Assembly (NCBI GenBank): GCA_022578605.1
Contig: MU394076.1
Coordinates: 372,001-436,000, forward strand
DNA: 64,000 bases
Source of the DNA: Camillea tinctor
Taxonomy: Eukaryota > Ascomycota > Sordariomycetes > Xylariales > Xylariaceae
Direction: 5' to 3'
The notes below the pieces were generated by a model. That model saw nothing but the letters and a program-made list of their open reading frames with translations. It was not told where the DNA came from and did no database searches. This document shows, one piece after another, positions 586 through 49,599 of this stretch. Both the position numbers and the translations under genes were made by a program. Position 1 is the first letter of the stretch. Every line of letters begins with the position of its first letter.

Positions 586-2089
586 ATGACGAGACTCAAC
601 ATTAACAATATCAACCCTCATGTGGTTGAGGCCAAGTACGCCGTGCGCGGCGAGCTGGCTGTCAAGTCGGAGGAATATCGTGCTAAGCTACGAAGAGGTG
701 ACAAGGATTTGCCCTTTTCTCAGGTCGTCAGCGCCAACATCGGCAATCCCCAACAGCTTGATCAGAAGCCTATTACTTTCTTCCGTCAGGTTCTAAGTTT
801 GCTTGAGAACCCCAAGCTCCTAGAGCACGAAGATGTTCTGCTGAACTCGCTTGGTTACAAACCCGATGTTCTGGAGCGTGCTAAGAAGCTCTTGCACGAC
901 GTCGGCAGCGTCGGTGCTTACAGCGCCAGCGCAGGTGTCCCTGCTATCAAGGAGAGCATTGCTAAATTCCTGGAAGGTAGGCTTTTTGATTTATTTCCAT
1001 TTTGCAGAGCGTTCACCTTGCTGACTCACCTCAATAGCACGAGATGGTTTCCCTGCTGACCCGGCCCACATCTACCTCTCGGCCGGTGCTTCTTCCGCTG
1101 TGAATACTCTGCTGCATATCATTTGCGCTGCTCCCAACTCAGGCGTGCTCGTACCCATTCCGCAATATCCGCTATACACTGCATCCCTCTCTGTCCTGAA
1201 TGCTACTTGTGTTCCTTACTACCTTAACGAGCATGAACATTGGGGCACCTCACACGACGCTATCAAGGAAGCTTACACCGCGGCCAAGGCTAACGGAACT
1301 GATGTCCGTGCCATCGTCATCATCAACCCGGGTAACCCCACCGGTGCCTCGCTACCCGAGGAAGATGTTAAGTCCGTCTTGGAATTTGCGGCTGAGGAGA
1401 AGCTTGTCGTCCTAGCCGACGAAGTTTACCAGACGAATGTCTTCATTGGTACTTTCCACAGCTTCCGGCAAACGCTCCACAAGCTCCAGCAAGAAGACCC
1501 GGAGAAGTATGGAGATGTTGAGCTTGCATCGATGCATTCCGTTTCTAAGGGTATGGTGGGCGAGTGTGGACACCGCGGTGGCTATTTCGACCTGGTCGGA
1601 TTTGATAAGGAGGTCGAGGAGCAAATTTACAAGTTTGTTTCCATCACTCTATGCGCACCTGTCATTGGCCAGTGCCTCGTCGAGATGATGGTTAACCCAC
1701 CTAAACCTGGTGACCCATCATGGGAGCTCTATAACGAGGAGTATAGTGGTATATTTAACAGGCTCAGGGAGCGTGCCAACGCACTATACGAGACCTTCCT
1801 AGGGATGGACGGTGTCGAATGTGGTAAGCCCCAGGGTAGCATGTATCTGTTCCCAACAGTCCATGTGCCCCCTAAGGCCGCCGAGGAGGCGAAACGCGAG
1901 GGCCGTACCCCTGACGAATTCTATTGCATGCGTATGCTGGAGGCTACGGGAGTGTGCGTTGTTCCCGGAAGCGGCTTCGGTCAGAAGGAGGGCACGCTCC
2001 ATTTCCGCACGACCTTCCTTGCACCCGGCACTGAGTGGGTAGGCGCCATCCGAAAGTTCCATAACGAATTCATGGAGAAGTACCGATGA
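586..2089 (+). CDS. Alanine transaminase (alanine aminotransferase)
   Basis: PLP-dependent fold-type I aminotransferase that interconverts alanine/2-oxoglutarate and pyruvate/glutamate. Exons are 586-976 and 1038-2089, with a 61-nt GT-AG intron. The join reads FLEARDGFPADPAH, which restores the conserved substrate-domain segment. The protein is 480 residues, normal for the family. Visible signatures are INPGNPTGA, VLADEVYQ and the PLP-lysine motif SVSKG followed by a GHRGGY segment. The ATG at 586 gives MTRLNINNIN, the usual cytosolic start. In frame just upstream lies a basic, serine-rich stretch (RRSFHTTSA) that resembles the end of a mitochondrial presequence but has no AUG of its own. The gene is convergent with the proteasome gene that ends at 2787. 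Identity is very secure; the exact N-terminus of a mitochondrial form is open. Confidence 0.95.
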
Positions 2090-2786
2090 GCCGAGTCTCT
2101 TTTTAAAAAATAAGTAAATGGATAATCAAGAGAAAATATTGGCTGACTGGGGATCTTTTTTCGCGGCGCGCGATATGTTGGTGGACTTGTTAGAATAGTG
2201 CATGACATAGTAAGGGATTGAGTAAGGATCATTTTGTAAAAAAGGATGCATGCGTTCTGTGTTGGAATCAGCAGATGTATCATGTAGCCCTATCCCGTCT
2301 AGATACGAGTGGTTTCCTTCTGGATAGCAATGTACATAGAAGGTATATTGCTGTAGAGTAGAGAGTTCGAGAGATGTGGCGAGCATCGGATCTGAAATTA
2401 GCATAGCCTAGAGGGTCAGAAAAGGGCAAGGGAAAACGGGGGAAAGACAAATCACAACTCTGGTGTACAACAATTCTGGTTCATCTCACAATCCCTTAAA
2501 ACTGTTATACTTCGTTCTTTTCTCTTTTTTTTTTCTCGTTGTCTACTTGCACGTAAATGTTGCTATTTTTCTCCTCCACCCTAAGACGGCGAGAGGCACA
2601 AAATATTAGCCTAGGGGGTTTGGATTTGTTTAAGTCCTTCTCCTTCCCTTCTTTTGTGCTTCTCCCTTTGTTAATGAGATACGTAACTCCAAATCCCTCC
2701 CTCCTGCTTACCAATTTAAAGCAGGTGGGCTAAAATCTGGGTTGGGCTAGGTCAGGTTAAGTTTCCTTGTCTGCACTCCTCTTCGA

Positions 2787-4392
2787 CTACGCTCTCTCGC
2801 TACCACGGAGGCGCACAGCCTGGCCATACTTCTGGAGCTTGGTGATCAGCTGGTCACCCTGCTTGACGACGTCTTGGTACTGCTTATTCTTGTCGTCAGG
2901 ACGGTTCGTCTCGATGACGCCCTTGCCCGTCACGCGGTCAATGGTGCAGGGGATACGACCACCGGCGATGAACTTGGCAAGGTCCCTAAAGTTTGCTGGT
3001 TAGCTAGCTTTAATCAAAGGAATCGTGAATCAAACGCACCGATCTAGGAAATCAACTGTGACACCGAAATCATTGGCCATGCTCTCGAGTCCAACGACGC
3101 GGTAGCTCTGTAGGAGCTGCTGGTAGGCACGCAGGCGCATCTCACGGATGAACCAGCCCTTGTGCTCGTGTAGGTAACGGTCCTGCGTTAAGAATTGCTC
3201 CTCGACCAGGGCCAGTGCCTGGAAGAACAGCTTATAGTGACCATTGTAAAGGCTGTTGACGAGCTGTGCGAGCGATGAGAAGTCGATGGCCATCTCGGTC
3301 TCGGGTTGGTCAATTCCCGTGCCCAGAGTGGCCAGGTTAACAGCAGTCGTGGTCTTGGTCGGGGCGCCCGGCGTGGTGCTGGTCTCCTTAGTATCCTGCA
3401 TCTCCGCGTCTTTGGCCCCGGGCCCGGCCGAGATGGCGCCCGAGAGCGCTAGCAGTTTGTCGTCTCCATCAGCGCCTAGAATGGCCTTGATCTCGGGTGC
3501 ATCCACGACCTTGCTCTTGAAGTCTACTCTCTTGAGCGACACAGAACCGGCGAGGACCGAATACACAACGAGGCTCGAGTATGTGCACAACTCATAGCTC
3601 GTAAAAGTCGAGAGGGAGTCGAGGAGGAGGGGGGCGGCGAGGTTGTAGGATCGGACGGTCAAGAGATGTAGGCCTTCGTAGGCCTTTAGACGGTTGCGGC
3701 GGTCCCAGTCACCTCCGCTATCAACGAGTGTCTTCGCCCGCGCAACATGCTTCTTAACCAGGGCCTTTTCGCCGTAGAATAGACCCATGCGGATTATAGC
3801 GAGGACGAGGTCGATCTTAGTGCCCAGTATGCCTGTCTTCTCGAACACATCCTCGTAGGCTGCTATCGCCTTGTCCTATAAAGGGTGTAAGTACGACCGT
3901 TTAGTAGGGGGGATCACACCAGCTGTGATATACCTTTTCGCCAATCTTAGCAAAAAACTCGGCCCGCTTCCCTCTCGCGGCCATAATTTCCGTATCTCCA
4001 GCCTTTTCAACAGCTTCGTCCTCCTCTTTCTGGAATTCCTCTAGTTCCTTGTCGTTCTCAGCCTTAAGCTTTTGGTAGACTTCCTCGTCCCAAGGTAGGG
4101 TAGGGCCTAACGTCGAACCCTTAGCTACCATACCCGCAGCGCTAGGTTTCCGGCTCGTGGGCCTGTGTTGGGCCGATGCTGACGTCGTCTCGCCGGTGGA
4201 GTTCAGGATGCCTTCAATTGGGTGTGCCAGATACCTGTACAGCGGGGCCATCTTGTGCTCACTGATGGCATCTTGTAGATTCTTAACCGCGGCTTGTTGG
4301 GCTGTTCGGGAGGCAAAGGGGTTCGTGATGGTGAAGACATGCTGGGCTAGAGGTAGCAGAGGCCATTTCGCATATTGGGGATCGGAGCCCAT
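2787..4392 (-). CDS. rpn7: 26S proteasome regulatory particle subunit Rpn7 (PSMD6)
   Basis: PCI-domain subunit of the 19S lid. Exons in transcription order are 4392-3934, 3875-3040 and 2985-2787, with introns of 58 and 54 nt. The predicted protein is 497 residues. The joins read IGEKDKAIAAYEDVFEKTG and FLDRDLAKFIAGGRIPCTIDRVTG, both classic Rpn7 sequence. The middle holds TPR-like helices (KIDLVLAIIRMGLFYGE). The PCI region runs from about residue 330 to the C-terminus (FFQALALVEEQFLTQDRYLHEH). Compared with yeast (429 aa) and human (389 aa) there are Ala/Ser/Thr-rich insertions at about 70-95 and 285-330. The start at 4392 (MGSDPQYAKWP) is preferred over the in-frame upstream TTG extension. 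The gene diverges from the cap methyltransferase gene across about 720 bp. Confidence 0.95.
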
Positions 4393-5113
4393 GTTGGATG
4401 TCAAGTGTTGAGTCGGGTAATGGTATTGTGGAGTGGACAGCAAATAATGGGGTTGGTAATAGCTTCAGAACTAAGTAGGGCTTCGCTGCGTGGGAAGTAT
4501 TCTTCGTATGTGTATTGATACGACGAAATGCAGGGTGGCTGATCAGGAAGGTTGAAGGAAAGAAGGAGAGAGGGAGAGAGAGTTTGGTGGTGAAGCTCTA
4601 GGTTAGACTTGTTTAGAGTTCGGCTTGATTGTTAGAATCCCAGCGATTTACATAGAGGGCAGCTGCAGGCGACCAAAGGTGGACGTAACTTCTCACCAAG
4701 CCGAAGCAGACGGACCAATCATCAGCGATAGATGTGGGGCTATTTGAGCCTCAAGCTAGGTACACTAGGTACCTTTGAATTGTACCATAGTACTATCTAC
4801 CTAGCACTATGCCAGTACTAAACTAACCTAGCTCCCCCAGTCCACATGCCTTTACTACTCCGTACTATCCTCCTACTTACAATACACTCACTACATCTAA
4901 ATCCTCAACAACCTAAACTTTCATCAGCTTTTCCTTTCCTCACTCACCATACCATTCCTCCCCTTTAACCATTCACCACAAACATACAAAAGTCTTCTCT
5001 TCATTTCGCCTCTCTTGAAAATAACAATATAAATCTATAAACTCTTTTATCAAAAGAATTACAACCTCCATCCAACCTACACCACTCCAACTTCCTCCCT
5101 TTTGTCATTCAGA
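4393..5113. promoter_or_regulatory. Divergent promoter region between rpn7 and the cap methyltransferase gene
   Basis: About 720 bp between two start codons on opposite strands, so both promoters must lie here. The right half (about 4840-5110) is strongly C/T- and A-rich, like a fungal 5' leader. TAGGTAC-type words occur at about 4757-4773. No ORF of note is seen. Confidence 0.6.
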
Positions 5114-6601
5114 ATGGCAGGTGACGATACCGAAGATTTACCCCAGCCCTTCGATGCAAAGCGACTCGAACCAGCAAAGAAACGCAAGAACGGCGACTCA
5201 TCAGGCTCCCGCGATATGAATCGCGACAATAGAAGTTCGGCCATGCCTTCAATTGACGAGCTGCCCCAGCCATTTGATGCTAAGAAACTTGAATCGGCCA
5301 AGAAACGCCAACGCTCTACATCGCCGTCCGACCAACCGCGTAAGCTCAAGAGACCAGGTCAGAGGGCGCGCATTTCCAACACAGAAGCTGCCTCTATACG
5401 TCAGCGACAAGAACAACGCGAACGGGATGCCCAACACGCCGCAGTCACCGCCGCTACGCTTGAGCAACGGGGCATCAATGATATCGTGCGACAACATTAT
5501 AACGCTGTACCCGAACGAGGCCGAGATTGGAGGAAGACGGGCAGTCGCATCAGAGGTCTTCGCGTCTTCAACAATTGGGTCAAAAGTACCCTGATCCAGA
5601 AGTTTTCTCCCGATGAGGACCACACTCCCGGCGCGCATCAGCAAGGACGTGACATGGCTGGCGCACACGGGCATGAGTTGATTGTGCTCGATATTGGATG
5701 CGGCAAAGGCGGTGATCTCGGGAAATGGCAGCAGGCCCCTCAGAGGGTGCAGCTGTATGTCGGGTTGGATCCCGCCGACGTTTCTATTGATCAGGCAAAA
5801 GAGCGATATCGTAGCATGAGCCACCGCCCTAGCGGCGGCCGTGGTGGCAGGGGCGGCTTTAGGGGAGGGCGCCAACAACACCTATTCGATGCGCGATTCT
5901 TTGTTAAAGATTGCTACGGCGAATCAGTTGGTGACATAGACGTTGTACGCCAAGTCGGTTTTGATCCTTCGCCTATGGGCAGGAGTGGTTTTGATATCGT
6001 CAGCATGATGTTCTGCATGCATTATGCCTTTGAGAGCGAGGAAAAGGCGCGTATGATGTTGCAAAACGTGTCCAGTGCGCTCAAGAAGGGCGGCCGGTTC
6101 ATTGGCTGCATACCCAACTCGGATGTGATTGGCGATAGAGTCACCAAATTCAACGAGCGCATGGCGGCGAAGAAGAGCGGGTCGGCGGAAGAAAGTGGAC
6201 CCGCAAGTGACGACAAGGAAGAGGGCGAGGCCGAGGAGACGGCGGAGTGGGGCAACGAGCTTTACCGGGTCAGGTTCCCCGGTAAGACACCCGAAGACGG
6301 CGTCTTCCGACCACCGTTCGGTTGGAAGTACAGCTTCTTCCTCGACGAGGCCGTTGAAGAAGTTCCTGAATATGTGGTTCCCTGGGAGGCCTTCAGAGCC
6401 ATTGCCGAAGATTACAACCTCGAGATGCAATACCACCAAAGTTTTAGAGACATTTGGGAGGCGGAGAAAGACGACTACATATTAGGTCCTCTTAGTGAGC
6501 GCATGGGGGTACGTGAGAAAGGTCGGGGGCCGTTGCTGGTGTCCCCCGAGGAAATGGAAGTTGCCAACTTCTACGTGGCTTTCTGCTTTTATAAAGTATA
6601 A
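5114..6601 (+). CDS. abd1: mRNA cap guanine-N7 methyltransferase (Abd1-like)
   Basis: Transfers methyl from S-adenosylmethionine to N7 of the cap guanine in the nucleus. Single exon, 495 residues. The catalytic domain begins near residue 145 with RGLRVFNNWVKSTLI, followed by the SAM-binding motif VLDIGCGKGGDLGKW, then YVGLDPADVSI and FDIVSMMFCMHYAFES. The C-terminal segment FGWKYSFFLDEAVEEVPEYVVPWEAF is also typical. The ATG at 5114 is used; the frame can be read 12 nt further up only through a TTG. The basic N-terminus carries two near-identical copies of LPQPFDAK(R/K)LE(P/S)AKKR at residues 9-24 and 50-65. An Arg/Gly-rich insert of RGG type follows DQAKERYRSMSH inside the catalytic domain. 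Identity is secure. Confidence 0.96.
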   Translation: MAGDDTEDLPQPFDAKRLEPAKKRKNGDSSGSRDMNRDNRSSAMPSIDELPQPFDAKKLESAKKRQRSTSPSDQPRKLKRPGQRARISNTEAASIRQRQEQRERDAQHAAVTAATLEQRGINDIVRQHYNAVPERGRDWRKTGSRIRGLRVFNNWVKSTLIQKFSPDEDHTPGAHQQGRDMAGAHGHELIVLDIGCGKGGDLGKWQQAPQRVQLYVGLDPADVSIDQAKERYRSMSHRPSGGRGGRGGFRGGRQQHLFDARFFVKDCYGESVGDIDVVRQVGFDPSPMGRSGFDIVSMMFCMHYAFESEEKARMMLQNVSSALKKGGRFIGCIPNSDVIGDRVTKFNERMAAKKSGSAEESGPASDDKEEGEAEETAEWGNELYRVRFPGKTPEDGVFRPPFGWKYSFFLDEAVEEVPEYVVPWEAFRAIAEDYNLEMQYHQSFRDIWEAEKDDYILGPLSERMGVREKGRGPLLVSPEEMEVANFYVAFCFYKV

Positions 6602-43173: not shown

Positions 43174-44980
43174 GTTAGTGGTATAGACGCACGCAATATG
43201 AGTCGCAAGAAGAATAAGAAATAGTTCCGGTTAACAAAATAGAGCCTTGAAAGGGGAGAGAAATAATAGGTATAGTGAGATGGGTTTCTCTGTTATTTTT
43301 TTTTCAGCAGATGACGTTAGCAGCACTTATTGACGTATCGTGGAATGGGTACATACAACCAGGCCAATACGAAAACAGGATTTTTTTCACAGCCCCCAAA
43401 AAAGCACCCAGCAAGGAATGGCTGGCCTACATATATGAATGTTGGGTTGTACCAACAATGGCGACGCCTACCTATGCAAGGCCAACTGGCGGTCGTGATG
43501 GTGATGGGTCCCTGCAACCATAACGACTAGTCGAACCCAATTTTTTATAAATAAATAAATAAGATAAAGGTAAGGTGATGGTGGTATTACGGTCAAGAGA
43601 GTCGAGAACTAAACCCATGGCGATCGGGCAAGCTCAAAGGGTTGCAGGTCGCCATCCGTGGGGGAGCTAAGGCTAGGTGTTGCTATATTAGTTACCGTGA
43701 CGGAGCCGTCCGACTCAATAGATATAAGGCTAGCAATGCCTTGCTATGTAGTGCGCGCATTTGTATCCATGACAGATGAACAAGCACCATCCGGCGTGCC
43801 GGGTACGGCATATAGGAGATGGGGTTTGCCTTTAATATAAGTGGCTGCTTGTTTATTTATTTATTTTCTATATTACGCATAGACTTAGGTATGTTAATGC
43901 ATCCTAAAGTCAGGTTGATATGAAAAGAAAAGACAAAACACCAGATCCAGGTTTTTTTGGTTAAACAAAGACAACGAAAAGGAGAAAGGAAGAGCGGGGA
44001 TGGGGGGAAAGAAAAAGGTGGGAGGGTTGTTGTTCGTTTGACATGCAAGAAATAATCACGACCAGGTAGGCAAACCCCATTCGGAAGATTCCCTGGTCCA
44101 CGATTGGTCTGATGTTACTTGATCCACCCTCGTGTCCGTAATCCTTGCAGAACTCCAGAACTGATAGACTCTATTCCGACCCACTCGACCTATCCTTCTA
44201 TCCTTCGCCAGGTTAGCACTTTAATTCAACTCTTAACTCTAATCATCGCATCTCTTTCGTATAGCTTTAGTTGTTATAGTTTGGTGTTAGTGGAACTACG
44301 TCTATCCTCAGACGACCCAATCAGAAAAGGTAACGCTTCGTGAGCTGCGGCTGTTTGCATCGCTAGTTCGGGACTATAGGACTAGCAAATCGTCAGACTA
44401 CACATAGGAAAAATGCTTGAGCTCGAGTTACATCAACGAAAACGAGTACCTGCTTCTCGATCGATCGGTATGACCGGCGTGGATAGACAAACCCTACATA
44501 AATCACCAATACTCAACAATACCTACCATATCGATGTTTACTTGTTAGGCGTGATTGGTTAGTCTAGTCCACTGCTGCACATATGGCTTATCACCTAATT
44601 CAGGGCGTAGAACCACTCTTTATACAGTTTATGGTCCAGGCATATAATCTTTTAATCTAGCAAGGATCTCCTATCTCGATATTCTTGAGCAAGCGACATC
44701 TTTCGATAATGCAGAAGGACTTAAAGTAACAACTAAAAACCCGGGGTTCAGAAACAAAAAAAAATTGAAACAAGACATCTCTTTGAAATTTTAAATGTTC
44801 TGTGATGCTCTCTCAAGTGGATCGACGACTAGAGATCGAAAGGCTTGTTGCAGTTTCACATCCTCCTTTGAGTCATTTATAACGTTAAACTGGCCCTCAA
44901 GGCATCTAATCACGACCTAAAAAGAAGATTGAGTCAGTTATTGCTGGAGGCCAAAATGGTGTGAGGGCGTTGACAACGCC
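43174..44980. other. Intergenic region
   Basis: No supported gene. Overlapping frames on both strands at 43275-43530 reflect one low-stop stretch and carry no motif. A/G-rich runs occur around 43975-44030. Confidence 0.4.
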
Positions 44981-45970
44981 ATGCTGTGTATGATGATCCA
45001 TGAGTTCTTGGAGAAAAGTGAATCAAGACTAGTCTTTCATACACGGTATGAGATAACAAGTCAAGAGGAGGAAATAATCTTTATGTCGACGTGCAATAAG
45101 CTGGAACGTAACCTGCGCCAGGCTTTGGGGAAATGGTCAGGACCGGGACCAGAAAGGCAACGGGACAGATTAGAGGCAGATGTCTATCACGATTGGCAGT
45201 GCTTCCAGGGACTCCCATCAGGGAATGGGTTACAGAAACTGCTACTATTCGAACTACTAAGGCTTCAGAATAGCCCACAAAGATTAATAGCATACACCAT
45301 ACTAGGGCAGGAACCAGAGCCAGGGGAGCAACCTCTGAAACACCATGAACAACAATTAGGAGTGCAACTAGTATTACAATATCGCCTGAGACAGATGTTA
45401 TTGCATGAGCTTGAGAAGACCATGCGTTGCGAGCTAGAGGAAAGGTTGGGCTTGCCGAAGTTGAAGAGTAAGACCGGGGAGGCACCTCAAGATGAGCTAC
45501 AGCAAATCCTGCACCGGAGACTATGTCAGGCATTGGAATGCGAGCGGTCACCAGCCTGGCTAATGAATGATCCATGGGTGATAGAGCGTCCATCGCCATA
45601 TATGCGGCGGAGTGATGCTCGAAAATGGATCAATAAAGCCGGTTTCGTATTTACCCCAGAGTCAGTGTTGGGGCCAAAACTGGAAGAGATTATAGACACA
45701 AAGTACAGGTATCTCATACACAAGACCATAGAACGCGCACTAGACAATTTGTGGCAGTTAGAGGGAGGAGGCTTCAAAGAAGATCAACACGAGACAGATG
45801 GGGAGCTGCTCATCAGGCTGGTGTCACACGAGAAGTCACAACTTCAGCGCGTAGAGGACCGGTTGCTATTACACGGAAGGGACATTTCGTCCAACACGGA
45901 GTATTTTTCGAGCATCGGCAGGCTGTATCGCATAAGTGTAGGTGCACCTATGAAGCTTCCACCAATATAA
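44981..45970 (+). CDS. Orphan protein of unknown function, helix-rich
   Basis: Intronless ATG-initiated frame of 329 residues, long for AT-rich DNA. The product is rich in Leu, Glu, Gln and Arg and probably mostly helical (QKLLLFELLRLQNSPQRLI, LQYRLRQMLLHELEKTMRCE, ELEERLGLPKLK). It has a more ordered segment around NDPWVIERPSPYMRRSDARK. I recognise no domain, signal peptide or membrane segment. The stop codon lies inside the left arm of a strong 26-bp inverted repeat, which may mean the C-terminus was created or altered by an insertion or rearrangement. It lies upstream of the peptide-precursor locus, but nothing links it functionally. Confidence 0.55.
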   Translation: MLCMMIHEFLEKSESRLVFHTRYEITSQEEEIIFMSTCNKLERNLRQALGKWSGPGPERQRDRLEADVYHDWQCFQGLPSGNGLQKLLLFELLRLQNSPQRLIAYTILGQEPEPGEQPLKHHEQQLGVQLVLQYRLRQMLLHELEKTMRCELEERLGLPKLKSKTGEAPQDELQQILHRRLCQALECERSPAWLMNDPWVIERPSPYMRRSDARKWINKAGFVFTPESVLGPKLEEIIDTKYRYLIHKTIERALDNLWQLEGGGFKEDQHETDGELLIRLVSHEKSQLQRVEDRLLLHGRDISSNTEYFSSIGRLYRISVGAPMKLPPI

Positions 45971-47014: not shown

Positions 47015-47382
47015 TTAAGCCTTGTCCTCGCCGTCACGCTTTCCGATGCTATACACAAGAATACTGTAATCTGCACTCTCAACCTCCCGGTTCTCCATTT
47101 CCTTCTTACCGATGCTGTAAACAAGGGTGCTATAGTCGGCGCTCGCATCCTCTCTCTTTTCCACGTCGCGCTTTCCGATGCTATACACAAGAGTGCTGTA
47201 ATCAGCACTTTCAGTATCTCTCTCGACTATAGGTTTCCTAAGTTAGCCTTCGACCTTATAAATAATATAGGCCTCATTATATGGTGCCCATCACAGGCAG
47301 TTAGGGACTTACTGTTCTCGATGGGCTCAGCGAAGGCGCTGGCCACGATTGCTAGGACGACGGATACTTTGGTAAAGAGCAT
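47015..47382 (-). CDS. Secreted repeat precursor peptide, dikaritin/ustiloxin-type RiPP candidate
   Basis: Exons are 47382-47313 and 47226-47015. The 86-nt intron runs from GTAAGT to TATAG, and the product has 93 residues. Residues 1-18 (MLFTKVSVVLAIVASAFA) are a clear signal peptide with an AFA cleavage site. Three perfectly spaced 22-residue units follow. Each has the 14-residue block SADYS(T/I)LVYSIGK(R/K) at 30-43, 52-65 and 74-87, separated by acidic spacers (DVEKREDA, EMENREVE). Dibasic Kex2 sites close the blocks: KR, KK, KR. The invariant YSIG at 38-41, 60-63 and 82-85 resembles the YAIG cores of ustiloxin precursor UstA. The intron separates signal peptide and repeats. The gene faces a UstYa oxidase gene across 1.2 kb, matching known dikaritin loci. 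A repeat hydrophobin-like or pheromone precursor is less likely. Product structure is inferred. Confidence 0.87.
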
Positions 47383-48616
47383 CGTTATGTTTAGAGTTTA
47401 GATAATTTGTAGTATATTGAGTGATACGCAGTAGAAGATTTGACTGTAAGATATGAGATTATATTCTCAAAGGATAGACCTCGATATAGGTGAAAACACT
47501 ATGTATTTGTACCCAAGACTTTTCGGGGCTCGGCTCCGACGTGACCCAGAACCGAGGAACTTCAAGGGGGGTTAAGGGGTAAAGACTATCCATGTAATTG
47601 TGTCGCGAGCGACATTACCTCTTTGGTAGATGTTTCCTCCCCTCCACACAGTTTAAGGACTAGACATCTACAGATTCAATTACATAAAGCATACCAGCTG
47701 ATACATGTGAATCATGGTTCTGTGACTAGGGCTGATTTGCGCAACATTGAGGATGATCCATTCATTTGGTAAGATGAGCAGATAGGCGCCAGCCGGAGGT
47801 GTTCCAAGTATAATACTAGACGCATACTATACTCACTCAGGAAGCTCGTTATGAACTTGTGTTGCCATCTAGACTGCTATAAAACCCTAGGTTTTGCCTA
47901 AGTCCCTAATTAGGCATTGTTTCCTTCTTAGATGATTATGAAGCTAGGGTGACTTCTAACCTACTCACCCAGCGATGTATTAATACGAAAACAATACTAC
48001 GTCCAAAGGGCCAAGCATGTAAACTCAGTATATCCAATATCATATACTTCAACTTAAAGAGATTCTAACGTTTGAACTGATAGGATCTTGGTTGCGAAGA
48101 CACTCTATCACAATTCGGAGAAGACAGAGCGCCTTTAATACAATAATTAATATGGTAATGTAAGATATTGATGCTTATCTTTCACCGAAGGCAAATACAC
48201 ACCCAATCTTTATCTGGAAAATATACTAATAAGTCCCCTATCCCCGGACACGGGTAACAGCCACAAGGATTCTTTTCTCTATAGCGCACTAAAGCTTGGA
48301 ATTCGACTCCTATGCACGAATACGTGCGGTGAAATGCGTAAACACAAGAGAAGAGACTTGTTTAACCTAGTAGATGCGGATTTCGGCATTGGATGTGATT
48401 GATTGGTATAATCTTCATCCCGCACGAAGGATCGTAAAGCTGGCCGACTTGGGTACTAGGTAGCTAGGATTTCGTGAGAAGGTGAAGGGGCCTTGTTATC
48501 CTTGTAGCTTGATCACGATTTGGAATTTGGAGCAATTAAATCGCCTCTTGAAATTACTAAATGATCTAAGCTCATATCAGAATGTAAATTTATTCTTTGC
48601 TTCATACTCAAAAATC
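47383..48616. promoter_or_regulatory. Shared divergent promoter region of the peptide precursor and UstYa genes
   Basis: About 1.2 kb between two start codons pointing away from each other, so both promoters lie here and co-regulation is plausible. No gene is supported inside it. Confidence 0.55.
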
Positions 48617-49599
48617 ATGACTGGCGCTTTTCAAACGTTCACCAAACTCTGGCAACAACAAGACTCTTCTTGCGCAACCAAGGATGAGGCCGAGATAAAG
48701 GAGGCTTTACTTGAGGGCGATAACAATGTCCTTTCATCGAAACGAAAGTCAAGAAAAACACCTCAAAAACGGTGGATCCTTACCCTTCTCAACTTAGTTC
48801 TGTTCGGAGCATCAGTCACCTTTTACATCGCCTCTTGGTCAAAATTCACAGCACGCAATGCCTGTCTCAAGGAGACTTCAGTATATTGTTAGTCTACTCC
48901 TTATGCGCACGATGGCTCCTACTGATGACACTTTTAATAGCCCCTGTTCTCGACGAGATTGACATACACACGACGGAGACCCTTCTCAATGGAAGTCTTT
49001 GGTTGGGAGACAACCCGTCAATCTGGCGTGGGCTTCCCAACTCCGCCGAGGTGAACGAGGCATGGGATAGCTTTGAGCACGTCAAACCTATAGCCCTAAC
49101 CAAGGCACAAATTATTGCTATGGGAAAAGACCCTGACATAGTTGCGAAATTCAACGACGACTACTGGCATCTTGGTGATGATGCCTATGTCGGCGCACTC
49201 GACATGTTTCACCAGGTTCATTGCTTGAACATGCTGCGCCTAGAAGCATTCAGGTACTGGGAAAAAGCAGGCGAGATAGTACCCGAGTGGACGGACATCC
49301 ACTGGATCCACCTACAACATTGCACAGATATGTTGATGCAGCACACGTTATGTAACGCGGACGCCGGTTTCTTAACGTACAACTGGATGGAGCACAGCTC
49401 ACGTCCCTTCCCAGATATGAGCGTTCAAAAGCAGTGCCGTGATTGGCGACAGCTGGTCGAATACCGTGATTCCCACGGGGTTAATCTCACTGCGTATGTA
49501 AACTGGGAGAAACCAGAGGGAGCCGTTGAATTGAAACAGCCCAAAGACTGGTGGGAACATCGTACTGAGCATGATGTATCTCATCAACACGAGGAATAA
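48617..49599 (+). CDS. UstYa family oxidase (DUF3328), RiPP cyclisation enzyme candidate
   Basis: Exons are 48617-48887 and 48941-49599, with a 53-nt intron (GTTAGT...TAATAG) and 309 residues. The join restores VYSPVLDEIDIH, a typical family segment. A cytosolic basic N-terminus (SSKRKSRKTPQKR) precedes one membrane helix at about 53-74. The lumenal domain carries both diagnostic HxxHC motifs, HQVHC at 181-185 and HLQHC at 214-218. Other family-like segments are NGSLWLGDNPSIWRG and CNADAGFLTYNW. Known members (UstYa/Yb, PhomYa, AprY, GigB/C) oxidatively crosslink Tyr-containing core peptides in the secretory pathway. The facing precursor gene is the obvious substrate. A start further upstream is possible only from GTG. 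Only one UstYa gene is visible, whereas ustiloxin uses two plus a tyrosinase. Confidence 0.93.

Follow-up and report, generated by a model that had tools for sequence, protein, structure and literature searches.

The window analysed here is a 64-kb stretch of DNA (C26:372001-436000) from the 44.7-Mb, 154-contig assembly of Camillea tinctor, a member of the Xylariales (NCBI taxonomy). It carries two divergent genes, one encoding a repeat precursor of 93 aa in two exons on the minus strand (47382..47015) and the other a UstYa-family protein of 309 aa on the plus strand (48617..49599). In window positions the pair is composed as follows:

47313..47382, minus strand: precursor exon 1, with the start codon, the signal-like MLFTKVSVVLAIVASAFA and the first leader residues
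47227..47312, minus strand: precursor intron of 86 bp, GTAAGT...TATAG
47015..47226, minus strand: precursor exon 2, with three repeats at 22-residue spacing, acidic spacers and the stop codon
47383..48616, no strand: divergent intergenic region, 1,234 bp between the start codons of the precursor and UstYa genes
48617..48887, plus strand: UstYa exon 1, with the N-terminal tail and a membrane helix (residues 53-73)
48888..48940, plus strand: UstYa intron of 53 bp, GTTAGT...AATAG; the alignment with the Biscogniauxia homologue (P0003) is gapless across this splice junction
48941..49599, plus strand: UstYa exon 2, with the catalytic domain, HQVHC (181), HLQHC (214) and the stop codon

The N-terminus of the precursor, MLFTKVSVVLAIVASAFA, resembles a signal peptide by inspection only and is followed by an acidic leader. 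The repeat unit SADYS[T/I]LVYSIG-K[R/K] is present three times, with its DY at residues 32, 54 and 76 (spacing 22 and 22). The dibasic end is KR in repeats 1 and 3 and KK in repeat 2, KK being a weaker Kex2 site than KR. A preliminary description of this DNA had read a 93-residue precursor with three equally spaced repeats and dibasic ends, and our two-exon model agrees with it in each of these points. When translated, the model shows 100% identity over 93 aa with a deposited C. tinctor protein (F4810DRAFT_243635; P0001), so the splice is also that of the depositors' model. Near-identical repeats at Kex2-type sites, together with an N-terminal signal peptide, are the marks of a Kex2-processed repeat protein (KEP), and the precursor has three such copies behind its signal-like start; the Pfam scan assigned it to no family.

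The precursor repeats are coding and constrained, and they are more than a product of chance. In the 13-codon core block SADYSTLVYSIGK repeats 1 and 2 differ by eight synonymous and no non-synonymous changes, and the comparisons of repeats 1 and 2 with repeat 3 add a single residue change, T/I. By comparison, the six other codons compared per 22-codon unit, which in repeat 3 take in the C-terminal end and the stop codon, gave 3, 4 and 5 non-synonymous differences in the three repeat comparisons. Moreover, the codon usage of exon 2, with six window genes as the reference, scored +0.254 per codon when read in frame, whereas the remaining two frames of the strand scored -0.172 and -0.124. ORFs with at least three similar 10-residue blocks before dibasic sites were also counted, giving one in the window and none in 60 first-order Markov resamples of 64 kb. 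This control is weak because real coding DNA outscores Markov DNA anyway, as seen in the two-block form of the same scan (four in the real window, none in the resamples); the codon pattern of the repeats and the codon usage of exon 2 are stronger evidence.

The product of the divergent gene matched PF11807 over residues 46-269 with 171.4 bits (cut-off 25; 3.4e-50) in the profile search that the preliminary description had suggested for 48617-49599. Hydropathy revealed one hydrophobic stretch (residues 53-73), and the two motifs are HQVHC at 181 and HLQHC at 214, which bears out the earlier view of a divergent UstYa gene 1.2 kb away (1,234 bp by our count) with one helix and both HxxHC motifs. 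The residues H181, H184, C185, H214, H217 and C218 are invariant in 39 aligned sequences, comprising the query and 38 of 41 database matches (P0021, P0022 and P0033 were left out). Among the 41 matches up to E 1e-10 none was identical to the protein encoded at 48617-49599, although the adjoining precursor is deposited; the best match, from Biscogniauxia sp. FL1348, reached 78%. The public annotation may lack this gene, or may model it at a different length which the search passes over. A sequence search for relatives of solved structure gave nothing credible, with one match at E 0.75. The region 47383..48616 presumably holds the promoters of both genes. It includes a CGG-N9-CCG motif at 47524, which we rejected as regulatory evidence given 11 such motifs in the 64-kb window.

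We consider the pair, with a probability of roughly 0.7, to be a small dikaritin-type RiPP locus in which Tyr-rich cores of a Kex2-processed precursor would be cross-linked by one copper-dependent UstYa, on the model of asperipin-2a. We favour this reading because of the PF11807 match, the invariant HxxHC motifs, the signal-like start, the three Kex2-spaced repeats and the constraint on the core. The preliminary description had assigned the locus to the same class, a Kex2-type repeat precursor beside a UstYa gene, and the assignment gains support from the family search, the splice model, the repeat constraint and the leader and Tyr conservation in Biscogniauxia mediterranea described below. 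Counting against it, repeat 2 ends in KK, and a tyrosinase, a second UstYa and a tailoring methyltransferase were not found adjacent.

In the proposed pathway the precursor would enter the ER by its signal peptide, a signal judged by inspection. Kex2 would then cut after KR or KK in the Golgi and, as the sites suggest, release peptides with ...DYS[T/I]LVYSIG and basic residues at their C-terminus. Trimming of basic residues by a carboxypeptidase occurs in such pathways and would be expected to remove them here as well. A requirement for KexB has been reported for ustiloxin B (PMC4740483). The single UstYa would be membrane-anchored and dependent on copper and O2, with a binuclear copper site built from the two HxxHC motifs and, by analogy with CctR, a lumenal catalytic domain. 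CctR is a DUF3328 protein described as a membrane-associated homodimer with copper- and dioxygen-dependent activity, in which the two HxxHC motifs constitute a binuclear copper site and Ala substitutions in these motifs abolish activity; copper and dioxygen dependence was reported for the cyclase AprY, too (PMC12435403). The UstYa of the window would oxidatively link one or both Tyr side chains to nearby residues, which would yield a mono- or bicyclic peptide for secretion. By analogy, it might tie residue 3 of YS[T/I]LVYSIG to the first Tyr or join the two Tyr-bearing halves, in either case in the secretory pathway, and the likely cross-link sites would be the first Tyr, the Thr/Ile two positions further on and the second Tyr at +5. 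Given the genes, their motifs and the constraint, we infer cleavage, cross-linking, secretion and UstYa activity from characterised systems, in which case the two genes would act together and a cyclic peptide would be made. The computed [M+H]+ values are 1002.5142 for linear YSTLVYSIG (-2H 1000.4986; -4H 998.4829), 1014.5506 for linear YSILVYSIG (-2H 1012.5350; -4H 1010.5193) and 1275.6103 for linear SADYSTLVYSIG (-2H 1273.5947; -4H 1271.5790).

A relative of the precursor was identified in B. mediterranea (P0002; 88 residues), with three repeats VDYGIIEYSR[G/E]KRD that keep both Tyr in 3/3 cases. The alignment of the two proteins has 55 of 93 columns identical; the leader is identical in 23 of 27 columns and the three 9-residue cores in 12 of 27. 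Judged from these two sequences, this is the conserved-leader and variable-core pattern of RiPPs. A single-sequence search of the protein database found no relatives outside Camillea and Biscogniauxia (2 of 85 candidates matched), and a two-sequence profile again returned P0001 and P0002 only (2 of 181 candidates), both searches working on annotated proteins with shared 5-mers. In the 44.7-Mb assembly the exon-2 peptide had no second copy up to E 10, its single match being itself. By these comparisons the precursor either evolves fast or is young.

Relatives 61-65% identical to the UstYa occur in 12 other species, whose genera we take to be Hypoxylaceae, and Zasmidium and Pseudocercospora have relatives at 47-50%. 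Within its own genome, the closest paralogue at the loci compared shares 35.5% identity with it over residues 91-272. Since the Hypoxylaceae relatives are so much closer than this paralogue, the window UstYa is best placed in a distinct lineage. A survey of the Hypoxylaceae describes an ustiloxin-like RiPP cluster in Hypomontagnella, H. rubiginosum and H. pulicicidum (PMC8403587). On the sequences compared, the wide occurrence of the UstYa together with the failure to find precursor relatives in the same species weighs most against a fixed partnership. The UstYa may therefore act on a different substrate, or precursors may have diverged beyond the reach of the search. The Biscogniauxia matches to the two genes come from different isolates, sp. 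FL1348 for the UstYa and B. mediterranea for the precursor.

The same distribution would agree with an alternative in which Kex2 does process the precursor as a repeat protein but its peptides are secreted in linear form as signals or effectors, and the neighbouring UstYa acts on another substrate. The Pfam-scanned ORFs revealed no further tailoring gene next to the pair, and 6120 of 7878 KEPs have been listed without a DUF3328 gene within 15 genes (PMC7329392). However, the precursor and the UstYa gene directly adjoin each other in divergent orientation, and Tyr is kept in all repeats of two genera. Besides, a signature of the Trp/Cys type, which marks pheromones, was not seen by eye in the precursor. 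Tyr was reported in 65.6% of DUF3328-associated repeated sequences compared with 38.2% (PMC7329392), and on the whole we regard secretion of linear peptides as unlikely.

Within the preferred interpretation as a dikaritin-type locus, a more specific product can be imagined. One UstYa acting without a tyrosinase would make a bicyclic peptide, the 9-residue core with its tandem ustiloxin-like Tyr-x-Ile/Thr elements (YS[T/I]-LV-YSI-G) would carry two aryl-alkyl ether rings, and the substrates of the Hypoxylaceae orthologues would be precursors that change fast and are yet to be discovered. In B. mediterranea the second element reads YSR and not YSI, which argues against this proposal, and we hold it to be rather doubtful. 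If true, bicyclic peptides made by a single enzyme would form a widespread family in the Xylariales.

The neighbourhood of the pair was examined by a Pfam scan of 24 other window ORFs and two past the right end of the window, which holds 43 ORFs of at least 150 aa, many of them overlapping; genes split into exons can escape such an ORF scan. Among the scanned ORFs there was no transporter or peptidase family above the cut-off and no tailoring methyltransferase, the only methyltransferase being an mRNA cap enzyme 41 kb away. The families matched include an MR_MLE enolase-type enzyme, a peroxidase, a Miro-like GTPase, an Nse zinc finger, WD40 and a flavoprotein domain. Several of the Pfam-matching genes at 1025-6598 and 34996-63143 are housekeeping-like (aminotransferase, RPN7, mRNA cap methyltransferase, Miro-like GTPase, Nse, WD40). 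A search for MFS transporters, in which 9 of 452 candidates were scored, cannot show absence. Between 32 and 64 kb, hydropathy indicated two ORFs with at least three hydrophobic stretches, one of which is antisense to the Nse gene. The other, ORF 45084-45629 (minus strand; 182 aa) at a distance of about 1.4 kb from the precursor, has four hydrophobic stretches and lies antisense to a 345-aa ORF at 44933-45967 (plus strand). Neither has a Pfam match above the cut-off, and neither is coding-like in its codon usage per codon (-0.05 for the former, -0.007 for the latter). Apart from the ORF 45084-45629, the preliminary description is sustained, as far as tested, in allowing for a minimal pathway with no MFS transporter adjacent, the 24 other window ORFs showing no transporter family above the cut-off.

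It had also noted neither a second UstYa nor a tyrosinase next to the pair, and the search of the whole assembly is in keeping with both statements. PF11807 gave 25 exon-level matches, which we grouped by contig into 13 loci, and no second match on the contig of the window. Tyrosinase (PF00264) gave 21 exon-level matches genome-wide, of which a single one lies on the contig of a UstYa locus, namely that of the window (C26:53141-53815), about 365 kb off. All 13 UstYa loci were scanned for repeats over at least about 3.5 kb on each side, by a method blind to intron-split repeats and to repeats without an exact four-residue word. The scan returned eight rows, three of them other frames of real repeats and one low-complexity. 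Repeat precursors or remnants lie at four of the 13 loci (window, C5, C16 and C21), which means that 3 of the 12 other loci have precursor-like repeats, two intact-looking and one decayed-looking:

C5:986898-999318: cluster with a precursor on the minus strand (L009 6898-7583), seven NNVDAAATRSGWLYIK repeats and five PF11807 genes within about 12.5 kb
C16:433465-434337 (L014 4465-5337), minus strand: precursor, signal-like at its start, with 21 YAIR repeats, 19 of them with DYAI
L023 5299-5640, minus strand: C21 repeat ORF with WSxKR repeats and no ATG at the expected place
L023 6510-6737, plus strand: C21 partial UstYa match beside the WSxKR repeat ORF

The seven repeats of the C5 precursor (...AAATRSGWLYIK) end in SGWLYIK, and the five UstYa genes there are our own grouping of PF11807 matches; C5 is a second, larger candidate cluster of the genome. 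Between its UstYa genes we noticed an ORF (C5:995133-995831, plus strand; L010 5133-5831) with a hydrophobic stretch and, by eye, HRAHC and HTVHC. Scanned from L010 5211, it gave no PF11807 match up to E 0.1, and it possibly encodes a divergent DUF3328 protein. The C16 precursor gene is divergent from the one UstYa gene there (about C16:435.9-436.8 kb), and its repeat YAIR resembles the ustiloxin core YAIG. Like the window locus, C5 and C16 combine a signal-like start, repeats and a nearby UstYa, whereas the cores differ. The repeat and UstYa remnants at C21 probably represent a decayed locus. A stricter repeat scan gave seven rows, four of which we judged non-precursors (one in L022, three in the window). 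The rest were two real precursors (window and L009) and one L014 row that is another frame of the C16 precursor; the YAIR repeat itself was absent here and was found in a separate scan.

The decayed-looking locus at C21 lends some colour to the idea that the window pair is likewise a relic, left from a larger ustiloxin- or phomopsin-like cluster after the loss or relocation of its tyrosinase, methyltransferase and transporter, with a truncated product or none. A contig with one UstYa, with no tyrosinase near and no tailoring gene recognised around the pair, would fit as well. Nevertheless, both frames are intact, the catalytic motifs are strict and the repeats are under constraint, and the asperipin-2a pathway is described with a single DUF3328 protein, too (PMC7329392), which makes a relic improbable. 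The notion that the repeat ORF arose by chance or is non-coding, as its shortness and the missing Pfam family might suggest, can practically be discarded in view of the identical deposited model, the homologue in a second genus, the synonymous divergence of the cores and a codon usage that fits the frame.

Among characterised loci, those of the ustiloxins and phomopsins share with the window Kex2-spaced repeats, a core start of the form D-Y-x-[I/T] and the UstYa HxxHC motifs, and their signal peptide has a signal-like counterpart in the window precursor. The asperipin-2a core is aromatic, FYYTGY, and to our knowledge its locus has no tyrosinase; the window core YS[T/I]LVYSIG is a different sequence. 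Similar to the window, the asperipin-2a locus of Aspergillus flavus (AprY) has a repeat precursor and a single DUF3328 protein, so the single-UstYa arrangement is not unusual (PMC7329392). Four genes were used for the heterologous production of asperipin-2a (PMC10512285) compared with two recognised adjacent in the window. The ustiloxin and phomopsin pathways, in contrast, are reported with two and five DUF3328 proteins, respectively, and require a tyrosinase (PMC7329392), whereas we found one and none. The DYSI of repeat 3 and the DYGI of B. mediterranea resemble the EDYXI of ustiloxins and phomopsins (PMC6339444), while repeats 1 and 2 have DYST. Dikaritin products are side-chain cross-linked cyclic peptides. 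Under the five-gene definition of dikaritins by Ding et al., which also lists a methyltransferase and a transporter or peptidase, the window locus falls outside on tyrosinase and on multiple DUF3328 proteins; under a later definition, in which DUF3328 with two HxxHC is the class-defining enzyme, it is a dikaritin candidate (PMC12048977). Cyclobiscognioxin A of Biscogniauxia papillata, cyclo-(Phe-Leu-Leu-Leu-Ile), was rejected as the product since it has no Tyr (PMC12783183).

In the survey by Umemura (2020), 1758 of 7878 KEPs have DUF3328 genes within 15 genes and the count peaks at the next gene (PMC7329392). The window pair shares this pairing of KEP and DUF3328, and its core sequence was not seen in the text passages of that survey consulted (PMC7329392). 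Neither the papers listed in the literature searches nor the passages and abstracts consulted gave a description of the window locus or its core. The architecture is known, and the locus is a credible further example of a known pairing, not a new mechanism. As a two-gene candidate with a constrained core, it would offer a convenient test of the minimum needed for such a peptide, and the relative with a different core in a second genus would allow a test of how a single UstYa keeps pace with a core that changes. Only five dikaritins were reported by 2022 (PMC10512285), in contrast to 1758 predicted DUF3328-linked precursors, and the window pair is one further candidate among many.
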